Virus record (IMG/VR): IMGVR_UViG_3300045952_000042
Span: 1 to 50,380 of that record
Length of the DNA: 50,380 nucleotides
Origin: a virus
Strand: one strand, 5' to 3'
How positions within the stretch are numbered: position 1 is the stretch's first letter; every line of letters begins with the position of its first letter. Position numbers and translations under genes: made by a program. Of this stretch, positions 8,702-47,746 are shown piece by piece. The notes under the pieces are model-generated. The model had not been told where the DNA came from and ran no database searches. It saw nothing but the letters and a program-made list of their open reading frames with translations.

Positions 8702-9049
8702 CTAGGAACCGACGATACTTTTTTCGAAAATGAACCGCCCGCGGCCCACGGTCTGCACTACGCCGAACGTGTCCTCGACTTCACATTGCCAGTCGAACTC
8801 GCCGAGAAGCCCTTGAGTCTGCGCAGCCGGAACCGTTACGAGAAATTCGCCAGCCGCTGCATCCGTGACTGTCGTGGTCACAGTCGCGGGCGTCGAAAAT
8901 GTCGGAGACGTCGCACCTTTCCGTTGCGCAGCAAACCGCAGCTCAAACCCTGTGATGTCGCTCGCAGCGCCGCCCTGCGTGACGACAAAACGCAGCTTGA
9001 TCGTATCGCCCGCGATCTCTTTGAAATCAATCGGCCGCGGTGCGCTCAC
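8702..9049 (-). CDS. BppU-N-like beta-sandwich protein
   Basis: A 115-residue protein with the layout of the N-terminal domain of phage baseplate upper proteins: DTIKLRFVVTQGG at residue 15, ITGFELRFAAQRKG at 32, EFLVTVPAAQTQGLLGEFDWQCEVED at 78-103, and a terminal RGRFIFEK strand. Such Ig-like modules link receptor-binding proteins to the tail. It starts at a GTG overlapping the stop of the repeat protein upstream (GTGA), so it is translationally coupled to that fibre gene. The assignment is structural by pattern. Confidence 0.7.
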   Translation of the reverse strand: MSAPRPIDFKEIAGDTIKLRFVVTQGGAASDITGFELRFAAQRKGATSPTFSTPATVTTTVTDAAAGEFLVTVPAAQTQGLLGEFDWQCEVEDTFGVVQTVGRGRFIFEKSIVGS

Positions 9050-21633: not shown

Positions 21634-21977
21634 TGAGCATCCTGCGCCACGCACAGAAGGTCATCACGGTCGCCGAGACGAGCTCGCCGAAGCTCGCCCG
21701 GTCGGCCCTCTGGCGCGTCGCCGTCAAGCGCCTCCTACGGGAAGCGGTAAACCTCGAGACGGAATGGCAGAATGACGAGGCCCGCGAGGCCCTGGAGGAG
21801 GACGAAGAATGCCAAGACCCAGGAAGTCCAGTATCTACGAACGATTTGAACGCCACGCTGAGCGAACTTTTGCCGACGCGGCAGCGCGCTATCTCGCGGA
21901 GTTCCAAGGAAAGGACAAGCTCCGTAGTGCCCATTGCATCGCGTCCGTCGCGCCGTACATCGGACAACTCCGATTGA
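21633..21977 (+). CDS. hypothetical ORF overlapping integrase
   Basis: A 114-residue ORF whose ATG overlaps the TAA of the ATPase gene (TAATG). Residues 1-58 (MSILRHAQKVITVAETSSPK onward) look like genuine helical protein. The last 56 residues lie over the start of the integrase gene in another frame and are Ser/Arg rich, as antisense or overlap frames often are. Either the gene is real with a long overlap or only its first part is meaningful. Confidence 0.4.
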   Translation: MSILRHAQKVITVAETSSPKLARSALWRVAVKRLLREAVNLETEWQNDEAREALEEDEECQDPGSPVSTNDLNATLSELLPTRQRAISRSSKERTSSVVPIASRPSRRTSDNSD

Positions 21978-22837
21978 TCGACGTCGACGACGAAGCAATG
22001 CAGGCGTTCAAAGAGGATCGACGCTTAGGCCGTCCGCCATTCGGTAAGCCGGCGATGGTGGGAACGGTGAACAAGGAGTTATCGCAGGTTGTGACCGTGT
22101 TGAATAAGGCCGCTCGTATTTGGCGTTGGATTCCGTCCGCGCCGAAAATCGAGCACGTCCGCGGAGCCGTGCGCCAAGCCTACCCGTTCACGCTCGAGGA
22201 ACAGAAACGACTGTTTGCAGAGCTTCCGAGCGGCTGGGACGTCGGCGCTGCGGTGTTTGCGGTCAACACGGGAGTGCGCAAGGAGGAGCTATTCGGCTTG
22301 AAGTGGACCGACATGGTTCGGGTGCCCGAGCTCGGGGACGGTGTGTTCGTGTTCGTGCTGGTCGATACGAAGAACGGCCACCAGCGCGCGGTGATCTGCA
22401 ATTCGTTCGCGCGCAACGCGGTGGAGCAGCAACGCAAGTGGCAGGCTAAGCACGGCTGGAGCACCTACGTGTTCCCGTCGCGCCGGCACGGCTACGCAGG
22501 CGAGCGCTGTAAGGCGACGGGGCGGATATGGGGCGAGGCGTGGATAAGGGCTGGTCTGCCTTCGGGGCCGCTCGTGAAGAAAGGTATCCACAACTGTCGC
22601 CATACCTTCGCGCATCGCTTGAGAGCGGCTGGCGTGCCACAGGAGGACCGCAACGCCCTCCTGGGACACGCTAACACGAACCTAGCCGAGCACTACGCCC
22701 TGCCCGACCTCGAGCGCCTACTGGCTCATGCGGAGAAGGTTGTGCAACTCAAGGAGACCACAGTGCTTAGAGTGGTTGCAACGCATGTGCCGACGGCTGG
22801 CATGGCTGTTGGGGAATCGAGCAACGGCGCGGCTTAG
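21809..22837 (+). CDS. int: tyrosine integrase
   Basis: A 342-residue tyrosine recombinase that inserts the phage into, and excises it from, the host chromosome. Residues about 15-110 are the SAM-like core-binding domain. The catalytic domain shows Arg157 in NTGVRKEELFGL, Lys188 in VDTKNGHQ, His261-Arg264 in HNCRHTFAHRL, His287 in LLGHANT and the nucleophile Tyr296 in AEHYALPDL. The ATG has GGAGG upstream. No excisionase with a recognisable MerR-like fold was seen next to it, and no tRNA-like core attachment site was found in the 100 bases downstream. Being inside the rightward operon, it would be repressed in the lysogen. Confidence 0.95.
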   Translation: MPRPRKSSIYERFERHAERTFADAAARYLAEFQGKDKLRSAHCIASVAPYIGQLRLIDVDDEAMQAFKEDRRLGRPPFGKPAMVGTVNKELSQVVTVLNKAARIWRWIPSAPKIEHVRGAVRQAYPFTLEEQKRLFAELPSGWDVGAAVFAVNTGVRKEELFGLKWTDMVRVPELGDGVFVFVLVDTKNGHQRAVICNSFARNAVEQQRKWQAKHGWSTYVFPSRRHGYAGERCKATGRIWGEAWIRAGLPSGPLVKKGIHNCRHTFAHRLRAAGVPQEDRNALLGHANTNLAEHYALPDLERLLAHAEKVVQLKETTVLRVVATHVPTAGMAVGESSNGAA

Positions 22838-27266: not shown

Positions 27267-27455
27267 TCACGGCGTCGCTTCAGCGATGTCTTCGAGAATG
27301 CCGGCCATCTCTTCGACGTAGATCTGCATCGAGTCGATGTGCCCTAGTTCAACCGCCTTCGCAGTTAGCCATTGCTGCGCAGCGGGTCGGCTGAACCCGC
27401 GGGCGCGCAGCGCATCGAGCAGCGACTGATGCTCCTGCTTCGTTATGGTATCCAT
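27267..27455 (-). CDS. hypothetical helical protein
   Basis: A 62-residue product whose ATG overlaps the upstream fibre stop (TGATG). Helical throughout (EHQSLLDALRARGFSRPAAQ, then YVEEMAGILEDI). It could be a tail-fibre chaperone or a lysis regulator. Not recognised. Confidence 0.6.
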   Translation of the reverse strand: MDTITKQEHQSLLDALRARGFSRPAAQQWLTAKAVELGHIDSMQIYVEEMAGILEDIAEATP

Positions 27456-28876
27456 CACTCCGCCCCTCGTTGCCCCCAGGACCCCGGCACGCGCGGCCCG
27501 GCGGGCGGCGGCGGCTCGCCGGTCGGCTCGGCCACGGACCACGAGAACGTGCCATCCACCGAAGCGCCGGACGCATCCGTGCAGCGTACAGTCGCGGTGT
27601 ACGGCGAGTCGTCCTCGGCCCCCGCACTGAGCGTGCCACTGATCAATCCAGTCGAGCTATTGATCGACGGCCCAGCCGGAAATGAGTTGTTGATCTCGCT
27701 GTAGGCCACATTGCCTTGCGCATAGCTTGCGAAGAAATACTTCTTCATCCCGATCGTAACCGAGGCGCCCGACGGGACGTTCACGGTCGGCGGCGTGGAA
27801 CGCAGCCCGATGGTGCTCGTGCCGGGATCAGCGAGCACTGTGATCAAAAGTGAATCGCGTAGCCCGAAGTTCTCGCCTGGCGTCTGATTCGTGATGAAAA
27901 GATACAGCTGCCCGGCCGTGAGCGATCCGAGCGCAACGTGGATTCGCAACTCCGTCGTGCCGTTGTAGGAGTACACGGTCTGCGCCACTTGATTGTTCAC
28001 GCCATTCGGATCGCTGGTCAAATGCACGAGCGGCACCTCGGCGCCGAGGTTCGCCACCGTACATAGCACACGCTCCTCGTGGCTGAAAACGATGTTGAGA
28101 TCACCGACCTGCGTGAGCGACGGCGGATCGCCCGTCGGCGCACTGCGCTCCGGCACATCCGGGCCTATGCCGTCGGTGCGCGTAACGGAACCCTGTAGGG
28201 ATGGCGCCGCAAGCCCGTTGATACCAACGTCCGCGCCACTGTCATCCCAAAACCAGGCGTTTGCGCCGTGCGTCTGACACAGCGCATCGCCTTCGTTGAG
28301 CGGGTCCGCCACGAAGGCTTCGCATTCGGACTGCGATAGCGCGGTATTGTGGATATACAGAAAGAACGCAATCTGCCCGTCCAGCTCTTGCAGCCAGGCC
28401 GAGCCGTTCCACACCGCGCCCAAGTAAAACCGCTGCTGCTGTCCATCGTCAAAAAACGACCCGCCGTCTGCACCTGAGACCGAGTGTGCTTGCGTAGCGG
28501 TCGAGAGCGGGATGCGGCGCAGCGTGATGTTGCCGCCGTTGCCAGGATCGCAGTAGCAGTCCGCCACCCACACATTCGCCGCCGACTCGCAGTTCGCTGT
28601 CTGCTCGAACGTCGGCGAGAGTGAATATTGAAACTCGATATTGTTGTTGGTCGGCTCGAAACAGATCGAGTGATTCATCGCGTAGTCGATAGCCGAATTG
28701 CGGCGACAGCCCCAAAAGCACCCGCGCTGCGACGGATCGAGCGTGTCGACGTTACGCACAACGATGATCGTACGAGCCGCTTCTCCGGCACCGGTGCGCA
28801 ACGCCGGTAGTCCGAGCGGAAACGTAGCCGCATCGCCATCACCGCCCGGAAAGTCCCACGCTGCAACGACGGTCAT
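27455..28876 (-). CDS. fibre protein with lectin-like and Ig domains
   Basis: A 473-residue protein. Residues about 1-200 look like a concanavalin/LamG-type jelly roll (RTIIVVRNVDTL, QRFYLGAVWNGSAWLQELDG, QIAFFLYIHNTALS). The middle contains TPGENFGLRDSLLITVLADP. Residues about 375-465 form a putative Ig (He_PIG) domain with GPSINSSTGLISGTLSAG and SPYTATVRCTDASG. A Pro-rich tail ends it. It is coupled to the beta-helix protein upstream (ATGA) and presumably forms part of the host-binding tip. Confidence 0.75.
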   Translation of the reverse strand: MTVVAAWDFPGGDGDAATFPLGLPALRTGAGEAARTIIVVRNVDTLDPSQRGCFWGCRRNSAIDYAMNHSICFEPTNNNIEFQYSLSPTFEQTANCESAANVWVADCYCDPGNGGNITLRRIPLSTATQAHSVSGADGGSFFDDGQQQRFYLGAVWNGSAWLQELDGQIAFFLYIHNTALSQSECEAFVADPLNEGDALCQTHGANAWFWDDSGADVGINGLAAPSLQGSVTRTDGIGPDVPERSAPTGDPPSLTQVGDLNIVFSHEERVLCTVANLGAEVPLVHLTSDPNGVNNQVAQTVYSYNGTTELRIHVALGSLTAGQLYLFITNQTPGENFGLRDSLLITVLADPGTSTIGLRSTPPTVNVPSGASVTIGMKKYFFASYAQGNVAYSEINNSFPAGPSINSSTGLISGTLSAGAEDDSPYTATVRCTDASGASVDGTFSWSVAEPTGEPPPPAGPRVPGSWGQRGAE

Positions 28877-30945
28877 GTGATTCCCCGAATGCCGCGGTTC
28901 GGCGCGCTGCCGCTTGCGATCCTACGATTGACCGCCGCGTTGTCAGCCCACGTCTGTCCGGAAGCAAGCGTCAGCACTTTCGAGACGTAGTTGATTGCGG
29001 TGTATTGCACGTTGCCGACACCGTTGATATGCACGTAGAACCCTCCCGCCTGCTCGCCGAAACTCGGCGCGCCGTCTTGAGGATCATCAAACCACGTCGC
29101 ATCGTCGACCGTTAGCGATGTGCTAGAAGAGCCTGCACCATTCGCCTGCGTGAGATTCACGCCCTGACCGATCGAGAGCGAGTCGGAGACCGGCAGATAC
29201 TCGCCGACGATATCCGTGACGTCGGCTTCCGCAGAGGCGGCCGGCGCATTGTCCAGATTCGCATCCGCCGTGAACGTGAAATTGGAGAACAGCGAAGGAT
29301 GATTCGCAAGCCACCACGTCACCGTCTGATTGCCAGCGCCATCACCGCCCGTGATGCTGATCCTGAAATCATCACCATCACGTGTAGCATCCTGGATGGT
29401 GCAGCCGTGCAGAATGCCATTCGGGAACGCACCCGCCATCGTCCGCCCAGTACCGAGGAAAATCAGGATAAGTTGATTGGTCCATCCGGAGCGTGGGTTG
29501 GACACAACGTCCCGCAGCACAAGATTCTTCATGCAGAAGTCAGAGAGCGGCGTCTGCCCATCTTCGCCGGAGCCCCACCAATCCACCGCGTAGAGCAACG
29601 GGCCACGTAGGTGATCGAACACGCAGTGAGCGATCCGGCAGCCTCGCGAATGATGACTCCACGCCGCAGCCTCGGAGAGAATCCCCTGCATCCGCCCGTT
29701 GCGCAGCACGCTATCAAAAAGCCCGTTGCGCGTGCCTTCGAGCTTCATGATCTCCGCCAGGTTCTGCGAGACGCCATCCTGCGGCAGCCCGTTGCGTTGG
29801 CGCACGAGTCCATAGGCATGCACGTCAAAAGCGTTCTGCGAGCCGACGATGCCGCATCGATTACCATCGGGCTCGGTGCTGGAGAATGTTGGCACCGTCG
29901 CCCAGGAGTTGTTGCACGAGATACCGCGGATCGCGCCGGATCCCGAGTAGATGCCGCCCGGATCGTGACCGATACGATTCCAGAAACGCCCCGACGCGCC
30001 ACCGTCGTACAAGTGCCGCACCGCATTCGCATTGCCGCGCCAGATCGCTAAGCCGTCGCCGAAGTCGTTGCCGTCCGGGTAGTAGCAGGTGCCGATCTGC
30101 TCGAAGTCCACCTCAAAGCGGCCACGCGCCGTCGTGTTCGGCGACGTGTCGATCGCGTTCCAGCCCGCGGTGCGCGTGACCTTGCACTCCAGCTCGTAGT
30201 CGGATGAGTTGATGCGGATGCCGTTGGTGATGTGCGCTACGGACTCCGGTGCGTCGCCTTTTTGCACTTGCCCGCCACCGGAGCCAAAAACAATCTCGCC
30301 ATCGACCACGAAGTACGAAGACTCACTCTCGCGCAGCACGCTGATAAACGGCACGTTGATATTGATCGCATAGTTGATCTGCCCGGAGGACGGCCCAAGC
30401 AGATACACGAGCCCGGTGCCGTTCACGCGCAGTCGGATGCGGTGCGTGTTATTGGTGCCTGCATTCTGCGGATTGAACGGCTGATTTCGATAGTTGCCAG
30501 GCGCGACCATGATGTCGACGTGACCGCTCGCGTGTGCCACGACTTGATTCGCGCGCGTGATCGTGGCCCACGGTCCAGTTGAGCCTGACGTAAACGTCGC
30601 CGATAACCCGGTCCAGCTATCGCTACCGGTAGCACCGTTCACATAGTACGTCTGCGCCGCGCTCGGGCTGCCTTGCACGACGATCGAGAAGGTCGTCTGC
30701 CGCGTTGCCCCGCCGGGCGCGGTCGCCGTGACCGTGATCGGATGCGTGCCGGCGACTGAGGTTGAGCCCGTGATGTCGCCGGTGGAGGAGCTGATCGAAA
30801 GCCCGGAGGGTAAGCCGGTCGCGCCAAACGACAATACGCCCTTATCCTCCGCATCGACGAAGTTCGCAGCGACGCTGAACGACACCGCAGCCTCCGGCTC
30901 GTGCTCTTGATCCGGTATCGGCGTGACGAGCGTAGGTGCGGTCAT
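28873..30945 (-). CDS. tailspike with Ig domain and beta-helix
   Basis: A 690-residue protein from ATG 30945, in an ATGA overlap with the tail-tip gene. Residues about 5-95 are an Ig/cadherin-like domain (FGATGLPSGLSISSSTGDIT). From YYVNGATGSDSWTGLSATF (about 98) to about 560 the pattern of short strands and turns with GNYRNQPF, HVDIMVAPG and repeated N/G turns fits a pectate-lyase-like right-handed beta-helix, as in depolymerase tailspikes. The C-terminal 120 residues (SLTVDDATWFDDPQ, GGFYVHINGVGN) form another beta domain. It probably binds or degrades a surface polysaccharide; catalytic residues were not identified. Confidence 0.78.
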   Translation of the reverse strand: MTAPTLVTPIPDQEHEPEAAVSFSVAANFVDAEDKGVLSFGATGLPSGLSISSSTGDITGSTSVAGTHPITVTATAPGGATRQTTFSIVVQGSPSAAQTYYVNGATGSDSWTGLSATFTSGSTGPWATITRANQVVAHASGHVDIMVAPGNYRNQPFNPQNAGTNNTHRIRLRVNGTGLVYLLGPSSGQINYAININVPFISVLRESESSYFVVDGEIVFGSGGGQVQKGDAPESVAHITNGIRINSSDYELECKVTRTAGWNAIDTSPNTTARGRFEVDFEQIGTCYYPDGNDFGDGLAIWRGNANAVRHLYDGGASGRFWNRIGHDPGGIYSGSGAIRGISCNNSWATVPTFSSTEPDGNRCGIVGSQNAFDVHAYGLVRQRNGLPQDGVSQNLAEIMKLEGTRNGLFDSVLRNGRMQGILSEAAAWSHHSRGCRIAHCVFDHLRGPLLYAVDWWGSGEDGQTPLSDFCMKNLVLRDVVSNPRSGWTNQLILIFLGTGRTMAGAFPNGILHGCTIQDATRDGDDFRISITGGDGAGNQTVTWWLANHPSLFSNFTFTADANLDNAPAASAEADVTDIVGEYLPVSDSLSIGQGVNLTQANGAGSSSTSLTVDDATWFDDPQDGAPSFGEQAGGFYVHINGVGNVQYTAINYVSKVLTLASGQTWADNAAVNRRIASGSAPNRGIRGIT

Positions 30946-33900
30946 GACGAGGACTTCCGCACGCGGCAAACGTAGAGATTAAATTCGTCGCTCGCCTCCG
31001 GTGCGCTGATGGCTAAACCGACCTGCATATAGTCGGCCTCCAGTATCTGCGCGTGCGCGAACAGATCCGTGATGGTGAACGTGACCGATTGCACGTCGCC
31101 CGCGATCAAGTCCTCCACGAGGATCCGATCTTCCGGAACCGGACCGCCCGGCACGATCTTATAGCAGCGTGGAGTCAACGCATTGAGCACAATCGGATAG
31201 ATAATCAAGCCGAACTCCACCACGCTGCCGATGCTCACCACGTCCTGTAGAATGTACTGGACGTTAACCGTGACGGTGTTCGTGATGTTCAGAAGATTTC
31301 GGCTAATGCCGAGCATCTGACCACCAGCCAACGTCCCGTCGACGGCAAAAAGCAGCGCATTGCCGCCGTTCAATCCTGCGCCCACCACGAGCTGCGCCGA
31401 GTGCGGGTCGTCCGCAACCGCTACGCTGCCAAAGCCGGTCCAGAACTCCGCATCATCCGCCGCCGAGAAGTTGCCGTCCGCGAGCTCGTCGAGCGCGATG
31501 TTGCTCGTGACTCTGCGTACCTCGATGTAATCGATCTCGCAAGCCGCATTGCTGCCGACCGGTTGATTGCACTCGATGATCGGCCGGATGTACTGCGCTC
31601 GCGTGAACGGCGAGTTAAGCGCGTGAATGAACGACGGATGCCACGGACTATTGAAACGATCCATCGGCAGGTTCAGGTGCTGGCTGTCCGGCGGATTGTT
31701 CGGATAGTCCTCCGATCCCGTGATCCATGCGAACGCGCGCTGCCATTCTGGATAGTTCGCAAGGTCCACCGCTGAGCATAGGCTGCGATTCGGGATCGAG
31801 CCTACGCCTGTCGGATTACCAGCCCCGTCGATCGTTGCGTCTAGCGTTGCGCCGAAAAAGCCAATGCTCAACAACTCGTTGCCAGCCTCGTGCTCCGCCG
31901 CACGAAAGCGCGTCGAGCACTCGTAAAGCTGGCTGGCATCGTACGGCACGAATCGTCGATACAGCGCTCGCATCGCGCCGGTGACGCGCATCGAATTGCC
32001 GCCATTGATGCCGTTTGCGTTAAACGAGATCGTCGGATTGCCGCTGATGAGCCACTCACGCTCGAAGTCTTCTCTCGACGTATAGTTGTCGAACGTCTCA
32101 AGCCAATGATCTGATTCCTGATACGGCGCTCCGCCGGTTGCCCGAAAGCCATCGTCTGCATCGGAACTCCACTCCGAGCGCCGCGCACCTTTGACCGTAT
32201 ACGCCCACAGCCACTTCGTTTGAATCTTATCGTACGGAATCCGAAACCACTGCCCGCGCCCGGTCTCTACCCGCACGGCATTGGCGCGGTCGTTGTCGAT
32301 CGACCCGTATATTTGGATTCGGTCGTACGCTATTTCGGGTAAAACCTCTAGCGTGACCTCGACTCCATAGTCCGTGGCGACGTAGCTCGCGAATACCGGC
32401 TTCGGCGGCAGCTCCGGATCGCCCTCGCCGAGCGCCACCTCACTCACCAGATACACGACCTTGCTGTGCGTGTCCCAGTGATCCCCCACGCCGATGCCCG
32501 GCTCATCGCCGGTGATCGGATCGCCCGGCCCGGCGCCTTGAATCACGCTCACGCGATTGCCGGTCTGAATCGTCGCGCCGTGATCGGCGACGACGTGCCC
32601 GGACAAGTCCGGCGCAATCGCTTCCGTGTTGTCCATGATGATCACGATGCTGCCCGGCGCGCCGCCGCCACCCCCGCCTGGGTACATCACGTGATCACCC
32701 AAGGTCATGCTCGTCGACGCCGCACCATCGAGACCGCTAACGTTGATCTCGCCGTTCAGGCCGAACTCCAAGCCGCGACATGTGATCACAATGCCGCCGC
32801 CGCCCGCGCCGCCCGCGCCGCCGAGACGCTTGACGACGTGACTGCCGCCGCTCGACTCCGTGAGCGGCTGCCCGTAAATGCCGGGCGTCCCGCGTAGATC
32901 CGCCTGCAGTCCGGTCAGCGCGCCTGCTTCGAGCTTGACGTGCCAGTCGATGAGGCTCGATTGACCGATACGGCTCGGCCCCGCGATGCGACTAACGACA
33001 TCGGCACCGGACAACGGAATGTTTTGCAGCCCGGCCGAGCCGCGCGTCGAGCCCATTGTCTGCACGTCGAAGGACTCTTGAAGGACATACGGATCATTGA
33101 CGACGTGCGGTGTTGTGATCGCCGCCAACCCGCCGCCGATCGACGATAGCGTGCCGTTGATCGTCAACGTGCCGAGCACGCGCAGCTGGATATTCTGCCC
33201 CCAACTCAACGTCACGCCTTCGTCGATCGTGAGGTTGCTCATGTGATAGAAGATCACATTGCTCGCGCGCAGATCGTCGCCGCCACCGAGTGCAATATTA
33301 GTCGTGAGATGACCGGCAACGATCGTCGCACCAGCAGCGGTCAGCGACACGCCCTCGCTCTCGTACCAGCTATCCTCTAGCGGCGTGAAGTCATTTACGG
33401 GCACCGTCGGCAACGTCTGCACCGACGAGCCGAAGAGCATCAGATTGCACTCGCCGGTGATCCAGTTCATCGACGCTTGCTGCACTTCCATCGCTCGATC
33501 AAACGTCCCGGTGTCGCTATAGTCATCGAGGCTCGGCAGCGTGACCTTCACCACGTCGCCGACTTCGAGCACGTTCAGATACGGCATGCCGACGAGATCC
33601 AGATAGATCGGCGGCGCACCGTAGCGCGACGACAAGCCAAGCCACGTGCGCCGTATGCCAATCGCGCTGTGCTGCGTGACCGGCATCCCTTTAAATTGCA
33701 TGGTCCGGGCAGCGCCGATTCCGTGCGTCGCTATGGATTCGTCATTGAAAAACGTAGAGCGGCGAGTGAAGCCGTCGCCGTCCCAGTTGTAGTCGATGGT
33801 CAGCTGGTTGATGACGCCGTCTTGATCGTGCTGCAGAGGACCGTGGCTGACTACATGCTCGGGCTCGATATACGCCACGACCGACGAGCGCGCGAGCACG

Positions 33901-39157: not shown

Positions 39158-39615
39158 TTTTTCGCGGCCTGGTCGATCAACTCGCGCAGACGGTCTTGCA
39201 GAACCTTGTCAACGGCCGGGATCATGCTGCGAAACGCAGGCTCGAGCCACGGACGTTTCGGAATCCTCGACGTGCCGAGTTCGATGAACTGCACGGCGTA
39301 GAACGCTTCTTTGCGCACGCCGAGCGAGACCTTCACGTAATCCTTGTCCTTGCCGAGAAACGCCCGCCGAATCACGTTGCGTCTCGCATAGCCCGGCACC
39401 GTGAGGCGTCCTTTGTAGGTACGTTTCGGATATGGGTCGACCTTTCGGCCGCCGTAATCATATGGTGGCGCACCGACCGGCGCCGCGGCTTGCGCGGCTT
39501 TTTGCGCCGGCAACATCGCAGCCATCGCTGCTTTGCGTAGCGCGGCACCGGCCGGCGCTCGTGCCATCAGATTCAGTTTCTGGAATAACTCCCGATGCCC
39601 GCTAATCTGCGACAT
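39154..39615 (-). CDS. HK97 gp10-like head-tail protein
   Basis: A 153-residue protein with AALRKAAMAAMLPAQKAAQA, APPYDYGGRK, VRKEAFYAVQFIELGTSRIP and KRPWLEPAFRS. The F-I-E-x-GTS-x-x-P-x-x-P-W-x-x-P-A-F pattern is diagnostic of HK97 gp10 family proteins, which take part in head-tail joining. It overlaps the tail completion gene by four bases and the adaptor gene by 14. Confidence 0.88.
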   Translation of the reverse strand: MSQISGHRELFQKLNLMARAPAGAALRKAAMAAMLPAQKAAQAAAPVGAPPYDYGGRKVDPYPKRTYKGRLTVPGYARRNVIRRAFLGKDKDYVKVSLGVRKEAFYAVQFIELGTSRIPKRPWLEPAFRSMIPAVDKVLQDRLRELIDQAAKK

Positions 39616-39922
39616 ATTCGCTCACCATCAGCTGCAGCATGCGATGTCGCTCGTCGACATCCAGAACGCTTTTGATATTGAAAACCCGCTCGCCGTAGAC
39701 AATCCGGTCGCGCGGTCTGTACGCGCGGCTTGCGCTCTGCCGGATCTCGATGCGGTGCGTGATCTCGGCCCGTTCGCCGGATGCGTTGAAATACTCGCGG
39801 CCACTGATCGGCTTGATCGACGCCCACTCTTTTGCGATCTCGTTCCAGGCGCCAACGCGCTGACCGGTGTCACCCTGGTCGGCCGTTTGCCGCTGCATAG
39901 ACACGAGATGGTTCATGCTCAC
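39602..39922 (-). CDS. head-tail adaptor (stopper-like)
   Basis: A 106-residue protein: VSMQRQTADQGDTGQRVGAW, EWASIKPISGREYFNASGER and IVYGERVFNIKSVLDVDERH. This is the phage head-tail joining / SPP1 gp16 pattern (A-I-P-L-S-G-R-E ... I-V...R...I). It closes the portal vertex. It overlaps both neighbours. Confidence 0.85.
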   Translation of the reverse strand: MSMNHLVSMQRQTADQGDTGQRVGAWNEIAKEWASIKPISGREYFNASGERAEITHRIEIRQSASRAYRPRDRIVYGERVFNIKSVLDVDERHRMLQLMVSEYVAD

Positions 39923-40116
39923 GACGCCGGCCAGACCTCGAGGCGCTCTTCAGTTATGAATGTGATCCCAGAACGTAACTGTGCATCGACAGCGCTGCGC
40001 TCGACCGTAATCGTCACGACCTTGTCGACCTCGGCCGTGATCGTGACCTTGCGCACGCCTTCGATATCAATACCGAACGCTTCGCACAGACCTTTTGCAA
40101 GCTCATTACTGGTCAC
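39919..40116 (-). CDS. hypothetical connector-region protein
   Basis: A 65-residue product: a short helix (SNELAKGLCEAFGIDIEGV) followed by alternating strands (KVTITAEVDKVVTITVERSA). It overlaps neighbours by four bases at each end. Not recognised; by context a late gene between the Maf-like protein and the adaptor. Confidence 0.62.
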   Translation of the reverse strand: MTSNELAKGLCEAFGIDIEGVRKVTITAEVDKVVTITVERSAVDAQLRSGITFITEERLEVWPAS

Positions 40117-40712
40117 AGATCACCCATCGGGAAACAATGCAGCGCACTTGCCGGCGTGCAGTTGACGATCGATACACCTTCCGGCAGATGCTTTGCTGCG
40201 TTCGTGAAAGCACGAATGAACGCTGGATAGTCCGAGCAGTTGGTCAACGGCTTCGGATGGTCACCGAAAAAGTGTGAGCCATGCATGTCGAATCCGACGA
40301 GCTTCACGTCGACAGCGCCGAACTGCAGCGCCAGATTCACGGCTGCGAATCCCGAATTGTCTCCATAGTGAATCTCGCCCGGCGTCGTACAGAACGTCGA
40401 CCCGTCTCGAGCGGTCACGAGTTTGATCCGAAATTGCTCGCACTTCCCCCAGTCCCGCTTGTTGTCGTCCGTGTTCGGATTCGCAGCCTGCGAGGCCCAC
40501 CGTTCACCCTGGAAATCGATGTCACCGTGCACGTCCCACCAGGCACGATCGGACGTATACAAAACGTCAGCAAACGGCAACAGCCGCCAGGCATCGTTCA
40601 CGGCGAGAACTCTCCAGCCCGCCGACTGTCGAGTCCGACATACCGTCGCAACGTCTTCGGTCAGTGACGGGCCGGAAGCGGCGACGATGCATGCCGACCA
40701 GCCGTCACGCAA
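40113..40712 (-). CDS. Maf/DUF115-like protein, copy 2
   Basis: A 199-residue protein with ACIVAASGPSLTEDVATVC at residues 7-25, WRVLAVNDAWRLLPFADVLY, TSDRAWWDVHG, and VDVKLVGFDMHGSHFFGDH. The GPSL start and the later GFDMHG are hallmarks of DUF115/Maf-type proteins, related to those that transfer nonulosonic acids onto flagellin, and also seen in phages as proteins of uncertain function. It is clearly related to the protein at 43275-43796, sharing YR/WRLxPxA, DRAWWxVH and GFDMHGSHxFG. It lies among connector genes and may act on a virion protein. Confidence 0.72.
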   Translation of the reverse strand: MRDGWSACIVAASGPSLTEDVATVCRTRQSAGWRVLAVNDAWRLLPFADVLYTSDRAWWDVHGDIDFQGERWASQAANPNTDDNKRDWGKCEQFRIKLVTARDGSTFCTTPGEIHYGDNSGFAAVNLALQFGAVDVKLVGFDMHGSHFFGDHPKPLTNCSDYPAFIRAFTNAAKHLPEGVSIVNCTPASALHCFPMGDL

Positions 40713-40992
40713 CAGCAGGATCGCGCATCCGCATCAGCACACTTTTCACCGCGGCATTGATCGGATCTTTGTCTGGCTCGTCGTACTGCATCCGAAGCAC
40801 TTCTAGCACGGCAGCGAATACGATCTCCGGCAGATCGTCGTTGCCGTCGACATCTTCGTACGTATCGGCTGGCACCTTCAGATAGTCGAGCACGATCGCA
40901 GTAGCCTCGTCCATCTTGCGAACGATGCGCTCGTCATCGTCGTCGCTCGTGATCCGAAGCTCTTGCTTCACGGTCTCGATATCGAGGATCAT
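40705..40992 (-). CDS. HK97 gp6-like head-tail connector
   Basis: A 95-residue helical protein from ATG 40992: ILDIETVKQELRITSDDDDE, ERIVRKMDEATAIVLDYLKV and PEIVFAAVLEVLRMQYDEPD. The L-x-x-x-K-x-x-L-R-I-x-x-D-x-x-D start is typical of gp6/gp15-like connectors that bind the portal. It is separated from the portal gene by five other genes, which is unusual. Confidence 0.85.
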   Translation of the reverse strand: MILDIETVKQELRITSDDDDERIVRKMDEATAIVLDYLKVPADTYEDVDGNDDLPEIVFAAVLEVLRMQYDEPDKDPINAAVKSVLMRMRDPAVA

Positions 40993-41810
40993 GCAGACCT
41001 CACCAACGACAACACAGAATCCTGCACTTGCGCCGCAGAATGAATCTCTGACGTCCTGTGCACGATATACGGCGCCCCAGACTTCACCCAAGCCCGCGGG
41101 AAGCTCGCAGGGAATTTGTCCGGACACAGCGCAACACACGGCGTCATAAAGTGATTCGCGAGAATGGTCATGCCAGAAATGACCCCGACGAGCACTCGGG
41201 CCCGCTTGATGATTCCAGCAACCTGACGCAACGAGGTCTGCCCGCTGAAGTCCATCACGTCTGGATGCCAGTGCATGACGCCATTGAACGGCAGATCCCA
41301 GTCGGCACCGATAATCGCGACCTGTCCAATATCGGAAACCACGAGTTGCCTGATCAGGTCGTCCCACCAGGCCGAAGTCAAATGCGGAAACCACGCCTCG
41401 TGAATCGACCGGCTCGAGTGATACACCACGATCAGATCCGAAGCCGCAATCGCCGGCTCCTCGACGTTGACCTCAAAATCTAAGTTGAGCTCGTACTCCG
41501 GCAGCCACCGCGACAAATGCTCGCCGCGGTCCACGATCGCGTTCGGCCACAGCGTATGATCAGTGCTAACCGGAAAGCCTCGTGCGTATCCGTTGGTCAA
41601 GATCTCGTGATTCGGCTTGAACTTGACCTCACTGGACTCGTCCACGAACTCGACCATCTTCGACCAGTCGAGCGCCCGCTTGAATCCGGCTTTTTGCACG
41701 AGCAAGTGCACTCGACTAATTCCCTGCCGTTGCCTGAAGGACTGAAGCTTGCTCAGCGCCCAGTAGCAGTCGCCCACACCCGGAGGCACCGCGATTCGTG
41801 CCTCAGTCAT
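40989..41810 (-). CDS. GT9-like glycosyltransferase (1)
   Basis: A 273-residue protein beginning TEARIAVPPGVGDCYWALSK, the P-x-G-x-G-D start of heptosyltransferase-like GT9 proteins. VVYHSSRSIHEAWFPHL, AIIGADWDLPFNGVMHWHP and ARVLVGVISGMTILANHFMT follow the C-terminal nucleotide-sugar-binding half, with G(I/V)xSGxxxLAxxxxxP. It probably moves a sugar from a nucleotide-sugar donor. It overlaps the connector gene and the methyltransferase gene (four bases each), so it is made with the virion proteins. Confidence 0.75.
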   Translation of the reverse strand: MTEARIAVPPGVGDCYWALSKLQSFRQRQGISRVHLLVQKAGFKRALDWSKMVEFVDESSEVKFKPNHEILTNGYARGFPVSTDHTLWPNAIVDRGEHLSRWLPEYELNLDFEVNVEEPAIAASDLIVVYHSSRSIHEAWFPHLTSAWWDDLIRQLVVSDIGQVAIIGADWDLPFNGVMHWHPDVMDFSGQTSLRQVAGIIKRARVLVGVISGMTILANHFMTPCVALCPDKFPASFPRAWVKSGAPYIVHRTSEIHSAAQVQDSVLSLVRSA

Positions 41811-42520
41811 TTCGCCCGCCCATACGCAACCATCTTGCCAGGGATCGGCACATCCAACGCAAACGGCTCGAACCCGCTACAGAACAGAAGCTTTGCCAAT
41901 GCGGTCGGCGTCAGATACCAAAAATGCTCGGCCTTGAAGTGATGCTGCCCGTCAGGATGTCGAACATCCGGCACGTCGACGATCAAGGTGCCGGATGGAT
42001 TCATCAGCGCCCGCGCCCGATCAAGCTCCCGCATCGGATCCACCAGATGTTCGAGCACGTCGTGATAAGTGATCAAGTCAAAGCGCAAATCGCTGAGCGA
42101 GTCCGGCATCTTGGCCGTCGTACCGGCGAATGATTTGCCAGTCTGCAAGGGATGCGGATCGATTCCGTACGACTCCACGCCAAACGCATTCAGATAGTCG
42201 ACAAAGGCGCCATTAGCGCAGCCGACATCGAGCGCTCGCATCCCGTCGCGCCACTCACCGTTGAGCACTCTGCGATATCGAGCGACCCGCAGATTCGCAA
42301 CCCGCAAGTCATGCTGATACCTCTCCACATAGGGCACGCAATCAGGATGCCGCGACGTAGCCTCGTGATACTCGCCGCTCTCGTACCACTGCTCGTACTC
42401 GGACGCGTTGGCGAGCGTCAAAAGCCTGGCCACCCCACAGGCACAGCGTATGACGCGGACCTCGTTGTGCGTTTCGACCGTGCCTATCTCGGCTCCGCAC
42501 AGACATCGTGCAATCAGCAT
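41807..42520 (-). CDS. SAM-dependent methyltransferase
   Basis: A 237-residue protein. An N-terminal Cys cluster (CLCGAEIG...IRCACGVAR, residues 6-31) forms a likely zinc site, as in sugar C- or O-methyltransferases. The Rossmann core has ALDVGCANGAFVDYLNAFGV at about 94 (motif I), SYGIDPHPLQ (motif II), FDLITYHDVLEHLVDPMREL (motif IV region) and GTLIVDVPD. It probably methylates a sugar or glycan. It sits between two glycosyltransferase genes with which it overlaps. Confidence 0.82.
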   Translation of the reverse strand: MLIARCLCGAEIGTVETHNEVRVIRCACGVARLLTLANASEYEQWYESGEYHEATSRHPDCVPYVERYQHDLRVANLRVARYRRVLNGEWRDGMRALDVGCANGAFVDYLNAFGVESYGIDPHPLQTGKSFAGTTAKMPDSLSDLRFDLITYHDVLEHLVDPMRELDRARALMNPSGTLIVDVPDVRHPDGQHHFKAEHFWYLTPTALAKLLFCSGFEPFALDVPIPGKMVAYGRAK

Positions 42521-43278
42521 GCGGCAGCCAACGTGAGTGACTGTGCGACGCGATCACAGGCGTCCTCTGGCTCGATGCGCTCTGTGATCTTCGTCTGTCC
42601 TGCGAAGTCTAGGCGCGTCGGGAAGCCATGCCCGTCGTAGATCGTGAACTGCGGCACACCCATGAACCCCGCAAGCACCGAAATACCGTTCTCGATGCCG
42701 ATGAATGCACGAGCTTGAGCCATGACCAAAACAACCTCGTGCGCCGGAACGCCGAGCAGCGCCCGAACGCCTGCAATCGGCTGATCTTTCGCAGAGCCCA
42801 CTTGCACCACCGTAAAACCACGAGCCATGAGCAATTCGGCGAGCCTTGAGAAATTGGCCCAGCCCCAGTCCTTGCCTACTCTCGCCCCGCGTTTCTTGCC
42901 GTGCCCGATCATCACGATCGTGTTGCCGACCGGCCGATGCTCCACGCCGAAATGCGGATAAACCCCGTGCTCGTAGCGAATGGCGAGATCGGTCTGATCG
43001 TTCAAGTGGCAAACCATGCTTTCCAGAAACAGAGTCGGAGGCCACTTGCGATAGACAAGCGAGTCGTGCGTCACGAGCCCATCACGCCCTCGACCGATAT
43101 AGAACCGCGCATCGGACAGCGCGAAAAGCTCAGGCACGAGCAACGGAAATCGTTGCACTTGCGACCAGTCGACGAATACATCCACGTCCGGCCGCTGGCG
43201 GTTGATGTACTTCACGCACGCGAGTGCCATCAGCCAGTCGCCGATGCCGTTGAATGGCCGCCAGATGGTGACGTTCAC
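42514..43278 (-). CDS. GT9-like glycosyltransferase (2)
   Basis: A 254-residue protein from GTG 43278. NVTIWRPFNGIGDWLMALAC holds the GIGDxLM signature of heptosyltransferase-type enzymes. The C-terminal half has NTIVMIGHGKKRGARVGKDW, FSRLAELLMARGFTVVQVGS, AFIGIENGISVLAGFMGVPQ and TIYDGHGFPTR, the GxEx(G/S)xxxLAxxxGxP donor site. It is paired with the enzyme at 40989-41810 but the two are not near-identical. Acceptor unknown; a virion protein is suggested by its place. Confidence 0.85.
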   Translation of the reverse strand: MNVTIWRPFNGIGDWLMALACVKYINRQRPDVDVFVDWSQVQRFPLLVPELFALSDARFYIGRGRDGLVTHDSLVYRKWPPTLFLESMVCHLNDQTDLAIRYEHGVYPHFGVEHRPVGNTIVMIGHGKKRGARVGKDWGWANFSRLAELLMARGFTVVQVGSAKDQPIAGVRALLGVPAHEVVLVMAQARAFIGIENGISVLAGFMGVPQFTIYDGHGFPTRLDFAGQTKITERIEPEDACDRVAQSLTLAAAC

Positions 43279-43796
43279 GCGGCGTGCTCGAGCATCGTCT
43301 GCAAGTCGACGAACGGGAAATGCGTTAACGCACTGCCCGGCGTGCAGTTCACGACCTCACAGCCGCCGCGCCAGCGGTGAAACTGCGCCAGATGCTGTTG
43401 AAACCTCGACGGCGACGTGTTCCGCAACGGCTCAAGATGCCGGCCGAAGTAGTGCGAGCCGTGCATGTCGAAGCCGAGCAACAGCACGCAGCTCGCGCCG
43501 AGCTCGCGCGCGACCCCTATCGCCCGGTAGCCGCTGTTGCTGTCGGCTGGAAACTCGTCGTCGACGACGAGTTTTTCGCTGCCGTTGACTTTGCCGATCG
43601 TGAATTTCCGACCCGCGAACCGTTCGGCATCGGCGTGTACTCGCCACCAGGCTCGATCGACGGCGACGAGCGCCTCTGCCCATGGAGCCAGTCGATATGC
43701 ATCACAAACCGCAATGACTCGACAGTGACCTCGAACCTGATCGGCGACCGCCTGCGACATACTCGGACCTGTGCCGAGCACCGCGAACAGGCTCAC
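43275..43796 (-). CDS. Maf/DUF115-like protein, copy 1
   Basis: A 173-residue protein from GTG 43796, which overlaps the TGA of the collagen-like gene (GTGA). SLFAVLGTGPSMSQAVADQV, RVIAVCDAYRLAPWAEALVA, VDRAWWRVHADAERFAG and VLLLGFDMHGSHYFGRH align in order with the copy at 40113-40712. The extended ORF on this strand is out of line with homology, so the GTG is preferred. It follows the collagen-like gene directly, which makes that protein its most likely partner. Confidence 0.74.
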   Translation of the reverse strand: MSLFAVLGTGPSMSQAVADQVRGHCRVIAVCDAYRLAPWAEALVAVDRAWWRVHADAERFAGRKFTIGKVNGSEKLVVDDEFPADSNSGYRAIGVARELGASCVLLLGFDMHGSHYFGRHLEPLRNTSPSRFQQHLAQFHRWRGGCEVVNCTPGSALTHFPFVDLQTMLEHAA

Positions 43797-44671
43797 GTTG
43801 ACTTGCCGTTTCGGCCTCGCTTGACCGCTAGGCGCCAGGACAAAGATTCGCCAGGCTTGTCGTTCTCGAGCGTCACGGCTCGCGCAATCCAGCTGCAACC
43901 ATCCCAGGTCACGCAGTCGCCGATCGCGTACGCTTTCGGCTGCCAGACGTCTTGGTAAATGATCGCATTGGTTCTGCACAGATGCCGATGCTGTATGCCG
44001 TTGGAAAATTTGACATCGAGCGCAAATTCGCGCTCGTTCACTTGCTGGACGTCGATGCCCGCAACACCGTTCATGACGCATTGCCACTCGATGCCGGTGT
44101 AGCGCCACAGCCCACCGAGATGCGTGGCATACGAATTGCGCACGTAGGGCCGACCCTCGACGATGCCGTCCAGTATCTCAAGCTGTGCCGCGTCCCGACC
44201 GTCTGAGCCGTTGGCCCCATCCCTCCCACGCTCGCCGCGGTCGCCTCGTTCGCCGTCGCGCCCGTCTCGGCCCGGTGTACCGTCCTTGCCATTGATCCCG
44301 TCGCGGCCGCGCTCCCCGTCCTGTGGTTTCGGAATCGCGGCGACAAACTCGCGAACCCAATTGCGCACCTGATCCATGTCGCAGTCACGACCATCTAGGC
44401 CGTCGACCCCGTCGCGGCCGTCCTTTCCGTTTAGCCCGCGCTCGCCATGCTTGCCGTCGATGCCATCCTGACCATCCTTGCCGGCCGGGCCGCGAACGCC
44501 ATCAACGCCGTCCGCGCCGCGCTCGCCGCGCACCGCCTTGGCGTTGACCATCTCGCGCAATTCCGTAATCTCGCGCCGCAGTTCGGCAGTTTCTGCTTGC
44601 TGTTGGCTGCGCAACTGCCGCACCGTCTCGTCGAATACTTTGGCAATGGCGTCACGCTCTGCCGTGTTCAT
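43793..44671 (-). CDS. collagen-like virion protein with carbohydrate-binding domain
   Basis: A 292-residue protein. Residues 1-45 are a coiled coil that could start trimerisation. Residues 48-95 and 118-160 are uninterrupted Gly-X-Y collagen repeats (GERGADGVDGVRGPAGKDGQ; GERGRDGINGKDGTPGRDG), interrupted by a non-collagen segment at 96-117 (CDMDQVRNWVREFVAAIPKP). Residues about 165-292 form a C-terminal domain ending YAIGDCVTWDGCSWIARAVT and SLSWRLAVKRGRNGKS, a pattern common to CBM5/12-like carbohydrate-binding modules. It overlaps the portal stop (ATGA) and is followed by the glycosylation genes. It is probably a trimeric virion fibre or head/neck appendage. Confidence 0.82.
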   Translation of the reverse strand: MNTAERDAIAKVFDETVRQLRSQQQAETAELRREITELREMVNAKAVRGERGADGVDGVRGPAGKDGQDGIDGKHGERGLNGKDGRDGVDGLDGRDCDMDQVRNWVREFVAAIPKPQDGERGRDGINGKDGTPGRDGRDGERGDRGERGRDGANGSDGRDAAQLEILDGIVEGRPYVRNSYATHLGGLWRYTGIEWQCVMNGVAGIDVQQVNEREFALDVKFSNGIQHRHLCRTNAIIYQDVWQPKAYAIGDCVTWDGCSWIARAVTLENDKPGESLSWRLAVKRGRNGKST

Positions 44672-46071
44672 GCAGCCTCCATAATTGCCCGCGCAAGCTC
44701 GCGGAAATGCCGTTGCACGTCCTCCGCACTAACGTCCTCGTTCTCTTCCGGTTCGTCGTCTGCCTCATCGTCCTCAGGCTCTGGCTCTTCTTCGGCCGCT
44801 GGCACGGCAGGCTTTGCGGTCGCAAACGGATCCGCCTGCGCATCGCGCTTCGCGAGCGCCGACAGGCTGTAGTTTTGCTGCTGCAGATAGGGCGACGCGC
44901 CGCCCGTGACCGGCATCAGGTTGCGTTTTGCGCGTGCCTCGTTCGGCGACAGAATGCCCGCGCCCACTTCGGCACCGTCCACTTCAGCGCGAGTCTTTGA
45001 ATCCATGCGCAGCAAGCCGTCAAGGTCGAGCTCCACACCGTATTCCGCCGGAAGCTCGAGCCCCTCGTCGAGCAGTACTTCGACACACTCGATGAATTCC
45101 TGCAGACATTGCGAATAGTAGGCTTGGTCCAACGCCTCGACGTTGTTGAACGCCGGCAGCGCACCGAATCCGATTTTGTAGCTCGGGACGCCAAAGGCTC
45201 GACAGACATCCTCGCCGGTCCAGCCCAACTGTGCGATCAGCTGCGAATCCTCGGCCGAGATACTGAAGGCTTTAGGCTCTAACCCGTCGCCTAAAATCGC
45301 CGTCTTACCGTAGTTGTCGCCGCCGAAGTTCTGCTCCCACTGTGTTTTGATTCGCGCCGCAGTCTGGTCGCTGATGGCGCCCGGCGTCGACAGTACGAAA
45401 CTCGGCCGGCTCATGTTGCCGAAGAACTTCGCACTGTTCTTTTGGATGCGCAGCCCCTGTGTCGCTGCCAATCCACACGCCCCGATCGGTGAGACACCGA
45501 TCAACGGATGCTCCGGTGCCACATGCACGTCATAGATCATTTCGCGCGCCGGCACGATCACCTCCTCATCGATCGATGCCAGCATGTTCTGCCGCAGCCT
45601 GAAGAAAACAGCGCCACTCTCTGACACGAGCGGGTCGACCATCGTCGCATCTAGCACACGCAGCTCGCGCACGACCCCTCGTGCATCGCGACTTTTCAGA
45701 ATCGGCGCGCGGCCGTGAATCAGCTTCGTCGTGATCCACTGCTCGAGAAATTTGATTCGGGTCTGATACGGATTCGGCTTGCGCAACACCGGACTATGCG
45801 CGGCGTTTTCAAATTCCTGCCACACACCAGACGACGTGCGCTGCATCAGCTTAAGCCGTAGCTTGCCGATGTCGCTTGAGATCAACCGGATACACGCAAA
45901 CACCGCGCTGTAGGACAAAACAGCATCGGTCTGTACTTCGACGTCCTGCTGCCACTGCCCGGCGTAGGTATCCCACACTCGGCGCCAACCTTCCGGCGGC
46001 TGAGCGAGCTGTGTTTGCTTTTGCTTGCGCGCAAACTCGATCGACATGCCAAACGGCAGCGGTAGCCTCAC
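44668..46071 (-). CDS. HK97-type portal protein
   Basis: A 467-residue portal. Landmarks: LSYSAVFACIRLISSDIGKL (about 52), PNPYQTRIKFLEQW, EMIYDVHVAPEHPLIGVSPI, KTAILGDGLEPKAFSISAED, and VCRAFGVPSYKIGF, then SPNEARAKRNLMPV near 390. This is the HK97 family portal order. An acidic, Pro/Glu-rich tail (EEEPEPEDDEADDEPEENED) ends the chain. It forms the 12-fold DNA entry ring. It is downstream of the capsid gene rather than upstream of the protease. Confidence 0.93.
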   Translation of the reverse strand: MRLPLPFGMSIEFARKQKQTQLAQPPEGWRRVWDTYAGQWQQDVEVQTDAVLSYSAVFACIRLISSDIGKLRLKLMQRTSSGVWQEFENAAHSPVLRKPNPYQTRIKFLEQWITTKLIHGRAPILKSRDARGVVRELRVLDATMVDPLVSESGAVFFRLRQNMLASIDEEVIVPAREMIYDVHVAPEHPLIGVSPIGACGLAATQGLRIQKNSAKFFGNMSRPSFVLSTPGAISDQTAARIKTQWEQNFGGDNYGKTAILGDGLEPKAFSISAEDSQLIAQLGWTGEDVCRAFGVPSYKIGFGALPAFNNVEALDQAYYSQCLQEFIECVEVLLDEGLELPAEYGVELDLDGLLRMDSKTRAEVDGAEVGAGILSPNEARAKRNLMPVTGGASPYLQQQNYSLSALAKRDAQADPFATAKPAVPAAEEEPEPEDDEADDEPEENEDVSAEDVQRHFRELARAIMEAA

Positions 46072-46295
46072 TCGTCGTCCTCGGCTTTCATATCGCGCCG
46101 CGTGTATCGGCGTTTCGACGGCTGTGGCTTTTCAGCTTGAGCAACTTTTGGCGGCTCTTCTACGACCGGCGCAGGTTCGACCTTCTCGCAAATGCCGACC
46201 GCGAGCAGCGTCCTTGCTTGACCGTCTGGAATGTCCTTGACCGCACCACGCGGACCCACGCGAGACACGTAGCCCTTGAGCACTCGAACGAGCAT
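46068..46295 (-). CDS. hypothetical protein between capsid and portal
   Basis: A 75-residue product: a short beta start (VRVLKGYVSRVGPRGAVKDI, LLAVGICEKVEPAPVV) and a low-complexity Pro/Lys/Arg tail. It resembles small proteins found near portal or connector genes. It overlaps the portal start by four bases and is set off from the capsid gene by a hairpin. Confidence 0.65.
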   Translation of the reverse strand: MLVRVLKGYVSRVGPRGAVKDIPDGQARTLLAVGICEKVEPAPVVEEPPKVAQAEKPQPSKRRYTRRDMKAEDDE

Positions 46296-46317
46296 TTCGT
46301 TACCTCAAAATCGGAAA

Positions 46318-46344
46318 GCTCGCAGACCCAAACGATCTGCGAGC
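46318..46344 (-). terminator. hairpin after the capsid gene
   Basis: GCTCGCAGA and TCTGCGAGC form a perfect 9-bp stem with a nine-base loop, followed leftward by TTTCCGATTTT. It could be a leaky terminator or an mRNA-stabilising hairpin that raises capsid expression over that of the portal. Confidence 0.6.
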
Positions 46345-46360
46345 CTCCCGAAACTAACGA

Positions 46361-47746
46361 CTAGGTGAACGTTCCGTACAAGGCGTCGGAGATCCACTGC
46401 GCGGCCTGAGTACGCCGCTTCTGGTAGTTGATGCTTCGAACGATCTTGAAAGCCGTGCTTTCCGTGCCGAACATCGACATAAGCGTCGCACTGGCAGCAG
46501 TCGGAGTATCCGACGCACCAGCAGGCGCAGTGTCTTGCTCGATCGTGGCCTCGCGGCTCAAACTGATCTCGACCGTATCGTTCCCGATGCGCCAAATCTC
46601 CGACGGCTTCACCATCACGATCCACGTCGCGCCGACGTTGTGACCGGTGACCACCGGCAGACCGCGCAACGTGCCGCCGTTCGGCGTAACGCCCGGGAAC
46701 TCGTCCTGACCGAGCGCGTTCGTCATCAAGCCAATCCCAAGAGCCAGGTTCGGATGCATCACGAGATACAGACCGTCCGTCGGGATCTTGGCGCTGATGA
46801 ATGGCGCGTACAGCTCCTTCAAGTCTTCGCGAACCGCGGTGCCGTCCTGGCCATTCGAGCCCAACGCCGTGACGCTGTTCAGCAGGCCGGCCGGAGAAAC
46901 GCCCGAAGACGCTGCCGCGTTGCTGATGAACGTCGAATCGATGCGCTGTGCCGCTGCGTTAACCAAAGAGTCCCGCAGCAACATCTCCGCCGAGGGGCTG
47001 GAGTCGCGAATCAGCTCGTTCGATGAAACCGTGATCGCTCCAACCTTCAGCGGACTCAGATTGACCGTGCTGAAGCTGGCGGCCGATGCCGGAATCGACT
47101 TGCTTTCACCAACCCAGAAGCCCGTGGCGGCGCCATCCTGGCCCTTGATGGTGACGAGGGCTGGCACCTGTCGCAACGGTAGCCGGTCATAGACCGTCAC
47201 CGAATACAACAGCTCGATGAAGTCGCCCATGTAGCGGCTGTCCGCCGTCACGAGCTCCGCACCTTCCTCGCCCGACCCGGAACCGTGGCCGACTACGCCC
47301 GTCTTCGTCACGATGCCATGCTTGAGCACGTCGACGAGCAACGGACAGTCCTTGCCCCAGCGCTGCTCTGCGATCTTCCAAGCCGGAACCTGGAAGCTGT
47401 CCATCTGCGACAACGCCGCAGCGATGGCTTTGCGCACGAAGAACTGGCCCTTAAAGGCTTCGTCCTTGTCCGAGTGCTTGCGCTGCAAGATCATCGGCAC
47501 CGCGGGCTTGACCGGCGACGGCACAACCGCCTTCGCGGTCCCGGCATCGAGCGCCTCCATGTCCGAAAGCCGCTTCAGATGCGTGTCGATCGCGCCGAGC
47601 TCGGTCTGCAAAGATCCGTACTCGGCATCCTCGGCCTCATCCAGCGTGCGCCCCTCGGCCTCTGACAGCGCCATGATCGCTTTCAAGCGATCGACGCTCT
47701 GTGTGCGCTTCAAGGTGTAAGCGCGAATCTGCTCTGCAGTGTTCAT
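46361..47746 (-). CDS. HK97-type major capsid protein
   Basis: A 461-residue protein. The first about 100 residues are a coiled-coil delta domain (LKAIMALSEAEGRTLDEAED, TELGAIDTHLKRLSDMEALD) that the prohead protease would remove. The mature part has the HK97 fold order: VYDRLPLRQVPALVTIKGQD, VNLSPLKVGAITVSSNELIR, ALGSNGQDGTAVREDLKELY, YLVMHPNLALGIGLM and ESTAFKIVRSINYQKRR. It has AGGAG about ten bases before the start. It assembles into the head. Confidence 0.94.
   Translation of the reverse strand: MNTAEQIRAYTLKRTQSVDRLKAIMALSEAEGRTLDEAEDAEYGSLQTELGAIDTHLKRLSDMEALDAGTAKAVVPSPVKPAVPMILQRKHSDKDEAFKGQFFVRKAIAAALSQMDSFQVPAWKIAEQRWGKDCPLLVDVLKHGIVTKTGVVGHGSGSGEEGAELVTADSRYMGDFIELLYSVTVYDRLPLRQVPALVTIKGQDGAATGFWVGESKSIPASAASFSTVNLSPLKVGAITVSSNELIRDSSPSAEMLLRDSLVNAAAQRIDSTFISNAAASSGVSPAGLLNSVTALGSNGQDGTAVREDLKELYAPFISAKIPTDGLYLVMHPNLALGIGLMTNALGQDEFPGVTPNGGTLRGLPVVTGHNVGATWIVMVKPSEIWRIGNDTVEISLSREATIEQDTAPAGASDTPTAASATLMSMFGTESTAFKIVRSINYQKRRTQAAQWISDALYGTFT

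Follow-up and report, generated by a model that had tools for sequence, protein, structure and literature searches.

A hypervariable slot for predicted glycosylation enzymes within the head-tail joining genes of temperate siphophages

We analysed a phage genome, IMG/VR virus record IMGVR_UViG_3300045952_000042 (50,380 bases, analysed whole and hereafter called the window), that carries five predicted enzymes among its head and head-tail joining genes: two sialyltransferase-like (ST) proteins, two heptosyltransferase-like glycosyltransferases (GTs) of family GT9, and an S-adenosylmethionine (SAM)-dependent methyltransferase (MT). That this cassette encodes glycosylation enzymes is well supported, and a virion protein is a plausible target. 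In temperate siphophages, the slot that these enzymes occupy within the head-tail joining genes is hypervariable and its content is swappable. A preliminary description of the window had proposed that the phage glycosylates a virion protein, most likely the collagen-like protein encoded next to the portal. The general proposal gains from the recurrence of sugar enzymes in head/connector blocks, as in the mycobacteriophage Corndog; the choice of acceptor is not supported.

Results

The cassette overlaps with head-tail joining genes

The late genes lie on the minus strand in the order terminase, protease, capsid, portal, collagen-like protein, ST1, GT9a, MT, GT9b, connector, ST2, a 65-amino-acid (aa) protein, Hc1 and gp10. 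The run from portal to Hc1 is as follows.

44668..46071, minus strand: portal protein (PF04860, E 3.5e-77; phrog_2271, E 1.5e-125)
43793..44671, minus strand: collagen-like protein (PF01391, E 3.2e-17; phrog_1289, E 9e-40; phrog_2271 positions 718-856)
43275..43796, minus strand: ST1, predicted GT42/Maf/MptE-fold transferase, sialyltransferase-like (phrog_4603, E 2.4e-34; GTG start)
42514..43278, minus strand: GT9a, heptosyltransferase-like GT-B glycosyltransferase (PF01075, 18.5 bits; family profile; Foldseek)
41807..42520, minus strand: MT, SAM-dependent methyltransferase with a Cys-rich N-terminus (PF13489, E 4.3e-20)
40989..41810, minus strand: GT9b, second heptosyltransferase-like enzyme (PF01075, 16.6 bits; part of the GT9 profile)
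40705..40992, minus strand: gp6-like head-tail connector (PF05135, E 1e-6, and TIGR01560, both above cut-off)
40113..40712, minus strand: ST2, second predicted GT42/Maf/MptE-fold transferase (phrog_4603, E 4.1e-34; structural model; Foldseek; TTG start)
39919..40116, minus strand: 65-aa protein between ST2 and Hc1
39602..39922, minus strand: Hc1, head closure/completion protein (PF05521, E 2.5e-24)

The overlaps listed for the gene junctions from portal to Hc1 are 4, 4, 4, 7, 4, 4, 8 and 4 bases; the GTG start of ST1, for example, overlaps the stop codon of the collagen-like gene as GTGA. Re-reading the boundaries thus bore out the gene set, order, single strand and 4-8 base overlaps given in the preliminary description. 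Third-position GC content is alike throughout the run (the slice used for the connector was out of frame), and a search of positions 39600-46400 for sigma-70-like promoters gave no match. A small gene resembling that of the 65-aa protein lies just before Hc1 in a related locus, L011 (L numbers denote related phage loci). The window also encodes an integrase (21809-22837, plus strand; PF00589), so the phage is probably temperate, and an integrase match was found in 14 of the 18 related records searched. A genome scan returned a single short match, in a Nitrospirae metagenome-assembled genome, and no named host.

Sequence profiles and predicted folds support the enzyme assignments

ST1 and ST2 are 44-45% identical, and the family to which both belong, phrog_4603, is labelled alpha-2,3-sialyltransferase. 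The predicted structure of ST2 (pLDDT 87.5) gave only two Foldseek matches under 0.001: MptE of Methanocaldococcus (8sd5; E 2.6e-4), which was the best, and the flagellin glycosyltransferase Maf (5MU5; E 3.4e-4). The match to Maf extends over a larger part of the query (TMq 0.64 versus 0.43-0.51). MptE is a pterin diphosphokinase, with a fold in common with the ST proteins but a different activity. A sequence profile of the ST proteins ranks the GT42 sialyltransferase CstII first, weakly (E 0.06). Since the fold of ST2 matches Maf, the earlier label of Maf/DUF115-like is fair at the level of fold, although the sequence family is phrog_4603. The phage ST proteins share their fold, a GPS motif and an NSG-type motif with Maf flagellin glycosyltransferases and GT42 sialyltransferases, from which they differ in being small, single-domain proteins of 173-199 aa.

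The two GT9-like calls rest on a family profile and a fold rather than on single-protein Pfam scores, as both proteins fall under the PF01075 gathering cut-off of 22 bits. The family profile matched TibC (E 4.6e-6) and WaaF (E 4.3e-5), and the first 19 Foldseek matches of GT9a were all GT9 structures (the model is modest, at pLDDT 60, and it is for GT9a that the GT9 fold was seen). TibC, the best profile match, is a protein heptosyltransferase; GT9a has its fold in common with TibC and WaaC/WaaF, whereas the phage GT9 proteins are shorter and only ~15% identical to them. The MT scores 72.5 bits against PF13489 (cut-off 27) and has a C-terminal EHxWYxT motif that is also present in the cassette methyltransferases of Pseudomonas phage D3 and jumbo phage Eowyn. 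Searches of phage records by tblastn with GT9a and the window MT found nothing, indicating that both are divergent, and scans of viral contigs with the single GT9a or portal sequence yielded no confirmed relatives; alignment queries were required. Hydropathy over 19 residues does not exceed 1.61 in any cassette protein. There is thus no clear membrane segment, which fits an acceptor in the cytoplasm. The enzyme assignments are thus backed by both profiles and folds, with the activities themselves being predicted.

The enzyme slot is hypervariable among related phages

To keep the sample blind to the enzymes, we searched viral contigs using an alignment of portal proteins and retained the best 80 loci, 54 of which had enough sequence. 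An ST gene was present in 22 of the 54, counting both sides of the portal, and 18 of these 22 had additional enzymes acting on sugar or methyl groups, making up ten distinct sets. An enzyme-family match without an ST gene occurred in three of the 54. Mapped onto the portal tree, ST presence requires at least 10 changes (gains or losses). The gap between portal and gp10 is 2.4-6.3 kb in loci with a downstream ST gene and 1.2-2.3 kb in those without, bar two at 3.5 and 4.4 kb. We named the accessory enzyme sets using profiles seeded by eye. Pfam confirmed the FkbM, radical SAM and Methyltransf_24 examples and one GT9, and gave no match for the GT-A, GT2, GT8 and KpsS-like examples, so those four labels are provisional.

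We also considered loci selected by ST. In all 28, one or more genes of the head, connector or portal-following kind lie nearby. The combination of ST, GT9 and MT is found in L017-L019, L038, L094, L104, D3, PAJU2 and Eowyn, with family matches also in L121. In L094 (5804-7920) these three genes sit immediately upstream of the portal; L094 and L121 were overlooked by a count restricted to the downstream side. Two ST copies are present in the window, L014, L032, phiNP and P1-like phages; those of L014 lie on either side of the portal (3747-4457 and 8139-8585). The cassette of L104, alongside its ST, GT9 and methyltransferase, holds a protein resembling GT29 sialyltransferases (8883-9611) with an E value of 9e-4, below the cut-off. 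A search for the gene order in other phages, as the preliminary description had suggested, therefore finds the same kinds of enzyme within the head/connector block of many phages.

Named phages carry similar cassettes

Pseudomonas phages D3 and PAJU2 have genes of the phrog_4603 type in their head-tail joining region. As in the window, this region contains ST, GT9 and methyltransferase genes (PAJU2 ORF010-012; D3 orf7, orf12 and orf13). The layout of PAJU2 is close to that of the window, with the portal, a neighbour with the same C-terminal domain as the collagen-like protein, a small gene in the place of the connector, the head-tail adaptor and, directly after it, ST, GT9 and methyltransferase. 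D3 and PAJU2 differ from the window in having one ST and one GT9 rather than two of each, and in lacking collagen repeats. In the papers searched, no functional test of the D3/PAJU2 cassette was found.

Phage P1 carries two ST-type genes and a glycosyltransferase, pmgO/pmgP/pmgQ (hdmB/hdmC in P7), in an operon annotated as morphogenetic. Unlike in the window, the glycosyltransferase is of the GT-A type rather than GT9, there is no methyltransferase, and baseplate genes adjoin. Knockdown and deletion showed pmgO, pmgP and pmgQ to be non-essential for plaque formation (PMC10695390), as one would expect if they serve decoration and not assembly.

Corndog, a Cluster O mycobacteriophage, offers the best known parallel. 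Its O-methyltransferase, glycosyltransferases and GlcNAc-transferase lie between the portal and protease genes and were proposed to modify the capsid; infected cells were found to contain these enzymes, which did not count among the virion proteins (PMC4351075). Like the window, Corndog has several GTs plus a methyltransferase set among its head genes. It differs in its actinobacterial host and, comparing by annotation, in its enzymes, none of which is named as Maf/GT42-type or GT9.

The collagen-like protein belongs to a family that is present with or without the enzymes

The collagen-like protein comprises an N-terminal part, two stretches of Gly-X-Y repeats (residues 49-96 and 119-160; 30 triplets in total) and a conserved C-terminal domain. 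The C-terminus had been described as carbohydrate-binding-like; we found only a sub-threshold match of 17 residues to CBM_5_12 (E 0.07). It is better described as a domain conserved across a family of phage proteins that follow the portal (phrog_1289, phrog_2271, phrog_16748). A gene with this domain adjoins the portal in 53 of the 54 surveyed loci, whether enzymes are present or not, and among relatives its stalk ranges from long collagen to none. Of the 53 sampled loci with this neighbour, 31 lack an ST gene, and the neighbour likewise occurs without ST in SP-016, RHph_X2_26, EBPR siphovirus 3 and JLK-2012. In Escherichia phage vB_EcoS-705R7 (L131:1593-3929), the portal and a stalk protein with the conserved C-terminal domain form a single open reading frame (ORF) of 778 aa. 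A fusion of portal and stalk is also suggested by phrog_2271, but this is weak evidence, given that JLK-2012 has the two as separate genes and PPompW_132418 has a frameshift in its stalk gene.

Glycosylated collagen-like proteins are known from BclA and Mimivirus. Acceptor-rich repeats of that kind would have triplets rich in Thr, or Lys at Y; the window repeats have neither, with two Ser/Thr among their 90 residues and Lys at none of the 30 Y positions. The collagen Ser/Thr tests, like those on capsid and tail proteins described below, used ST labels from the downstream side only, with L094 and L121 scored as lacking ST; under these labels, Ser/Thr was not significantly enriched in the collagen triplets of ST-bearing phages. 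Collagen length was initially associated with the cassette at a raw p of 0.0014, with ST counted downstream of the portal only. Once upstream enzymes were counted, the median was 29 triplets in ST-bearing loci versus 11 (p 0.015, uncorrected), and the association found no support in phylogenetically independent pairs. Only six such pairs were available, which is too few, so a link between collagen length and the cassette may still exist.

Other genes in the window

A 496-aa protein with a HATPase_c_3 domain (20143-21633, plus strand) adjoins the integrase and had no match in PADLOC or PHROG; it is a possible accessory gene. A 307-aa protein (17621-18544, plus strand) has weak Cas4-like and PDC-S16/DUF2188 matches. 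On the minus strand, positions 2733-3515 encode a protein with a Concanavalin A-like lectin domain (Laminin_G_3), and 27455-30969 encode two large neighbouring proteins, both of which have a putative Ig domain (He_PIG).

Discussion

The cassette most likely decorates one of the phage's own particle proteins. From its genes and their setting we infer the activities, the sugar donors and a protein acceptor in the virion as follows. Five soluble enzymes, comprising two of the Maf/GT42 fold (suggesting sialic-acid-like sugars), two GT9 and one methyltransferase, would be translated together with the portal and connector by virtue of the gene overlaps in the late head-tail joining block. Drawing on host nucleotide sugars as donors, they would place a short methylated glycan on a virion protein in the cytoplasm during assembly. 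We hold this model with moderate confidence; it is the most likely one given the soluble enzymes, the overlaps, the dispensability of the P1 genes and the precedent of Corndog. By analogy with mycobacteriophages, whose capsid and tail-tube C-termini carry glycans according to work cited in PMC12619734, capsid or tail-tube proteins are the leading candidate acceptors, ahead of the collagen-like protein.

Several observations weigh against virion glycosylation. Some phrog_4603-type genes lie away from head genes: after the tail genes in Caulobacter phage CcrSC, at the record end in Eowyn, and in the pmg operon of the P1-like RCS47. Comparing phages with and without ST, the C-termini of the major capsid protein (MCP) and major tail protein showed no clear difference, and hence no acceptor signature; Ser/Thr content across the whole MCP showed a slight difference (uncorrected p 0.017, in one test among several). 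In the portion of the window ORFs that was scanned, we noticed no gene for donor synthesis. To our knowledge, a glycan has been measured on none of these phages.

A different possibility is that the enzymes modify host surface glycans, that is, lipopolysaccharide (LPS) or capsule, late in infection, for example keeping released particles or rivals off the cell. Bacterial GT9 and GT42 enzymes classically act on LPS or lipooligosaccharide, D3 is a serotype-converting phage, and enzymes named KpsS-like and GT2-like by resemblance occur in the slot of related phages. However, GtrABC serotype conversion involves polytopic membrane components, of which the cassette has no counterpart, and the cassette genes are tied by overlaps to head genes rather than set apart as independent conversion genes. 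We therefore regard modification of the host surface as unlikely, though the strongest of the alternatives.

The preliminary description placed the glycan on the collagen-like protein, which adjoins the cassette in the window and has more triplets in ST-bearing loci. It had also named an observation that would count against this: related phages with the enzymes, lacking the collagen-like gene and acting on LPS. The first half of this is what we find, since D3 (in the stretch examined), L011, L012, L035 and L037 have enzymes or ST without a collagen-like gene, and the portal neighbour in PAJU2 is a version without collagen repeats. Given also that the neighbour is near-constant, that its repeats contain few Ser/Thr and that independent pairs lend no support, this acceptor is possible but not favoured, and we consider it improbable.

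It is very unlikely that, instead of glycosylating virion proteins, the ST-type protein is itself part of the particle or is injected. PAJU2 ORF010 was deposited as a 'structural protein', as were the capsid gene ORF003 and ORF015, although the basis of this label could not be checked, and the Eowyn copy is labelled likewise. Against this, the main text of the paper on the virion proteome of P1 reports PmgC and PmgG as virion-associated but mentions neither PmgO nor PmgP (PMC9024508), and the accompanying GTs and methyltransferases would be left unexplained. Least probable of all is modification of DNA or a small molecule, which is suggested by the MptE match and by the ability of phage glycosyltransferases to modify DNA (as cited in PMC12619734) but is opposed by the greater span of the Maf match, by phrog_4603 being by far the strongest sequence match, and by an incomplete Pfam scan of the ORFs in which no base-hypermodification gene was seen.

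Returning to virion glycosylation, the slot holds other enzyme sets, or none, in related phages, and the glycan would therefore differ between phages. We tentatively suggest, with rather more doubt than conviction, that temperate siphophages widely carry a hypervariable 'virion glycotype' locus, in which a core Maf/GT42-type transferase combines with swappable GTs and methyltransferases to give each phage its own particle glycan. Such a locus would be the viral counterpart of the bacterial O-antigen locus, with D3, PAJU2 and P1 as unrecognised carriers. The variability of the slot is its most interesting property, and is what is new relative to cassettes of the Corndog type. Virion glycosylation has been reported in mycobacteriophages and is said to shield their particles against anti-phage responses. 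Should the cassettes described here do likewise, virion glycosylation would be far more widespread, present in long-used laboratory phages, and specific to each phage, and neutralisation, adsorption and phage typing could all be affected.

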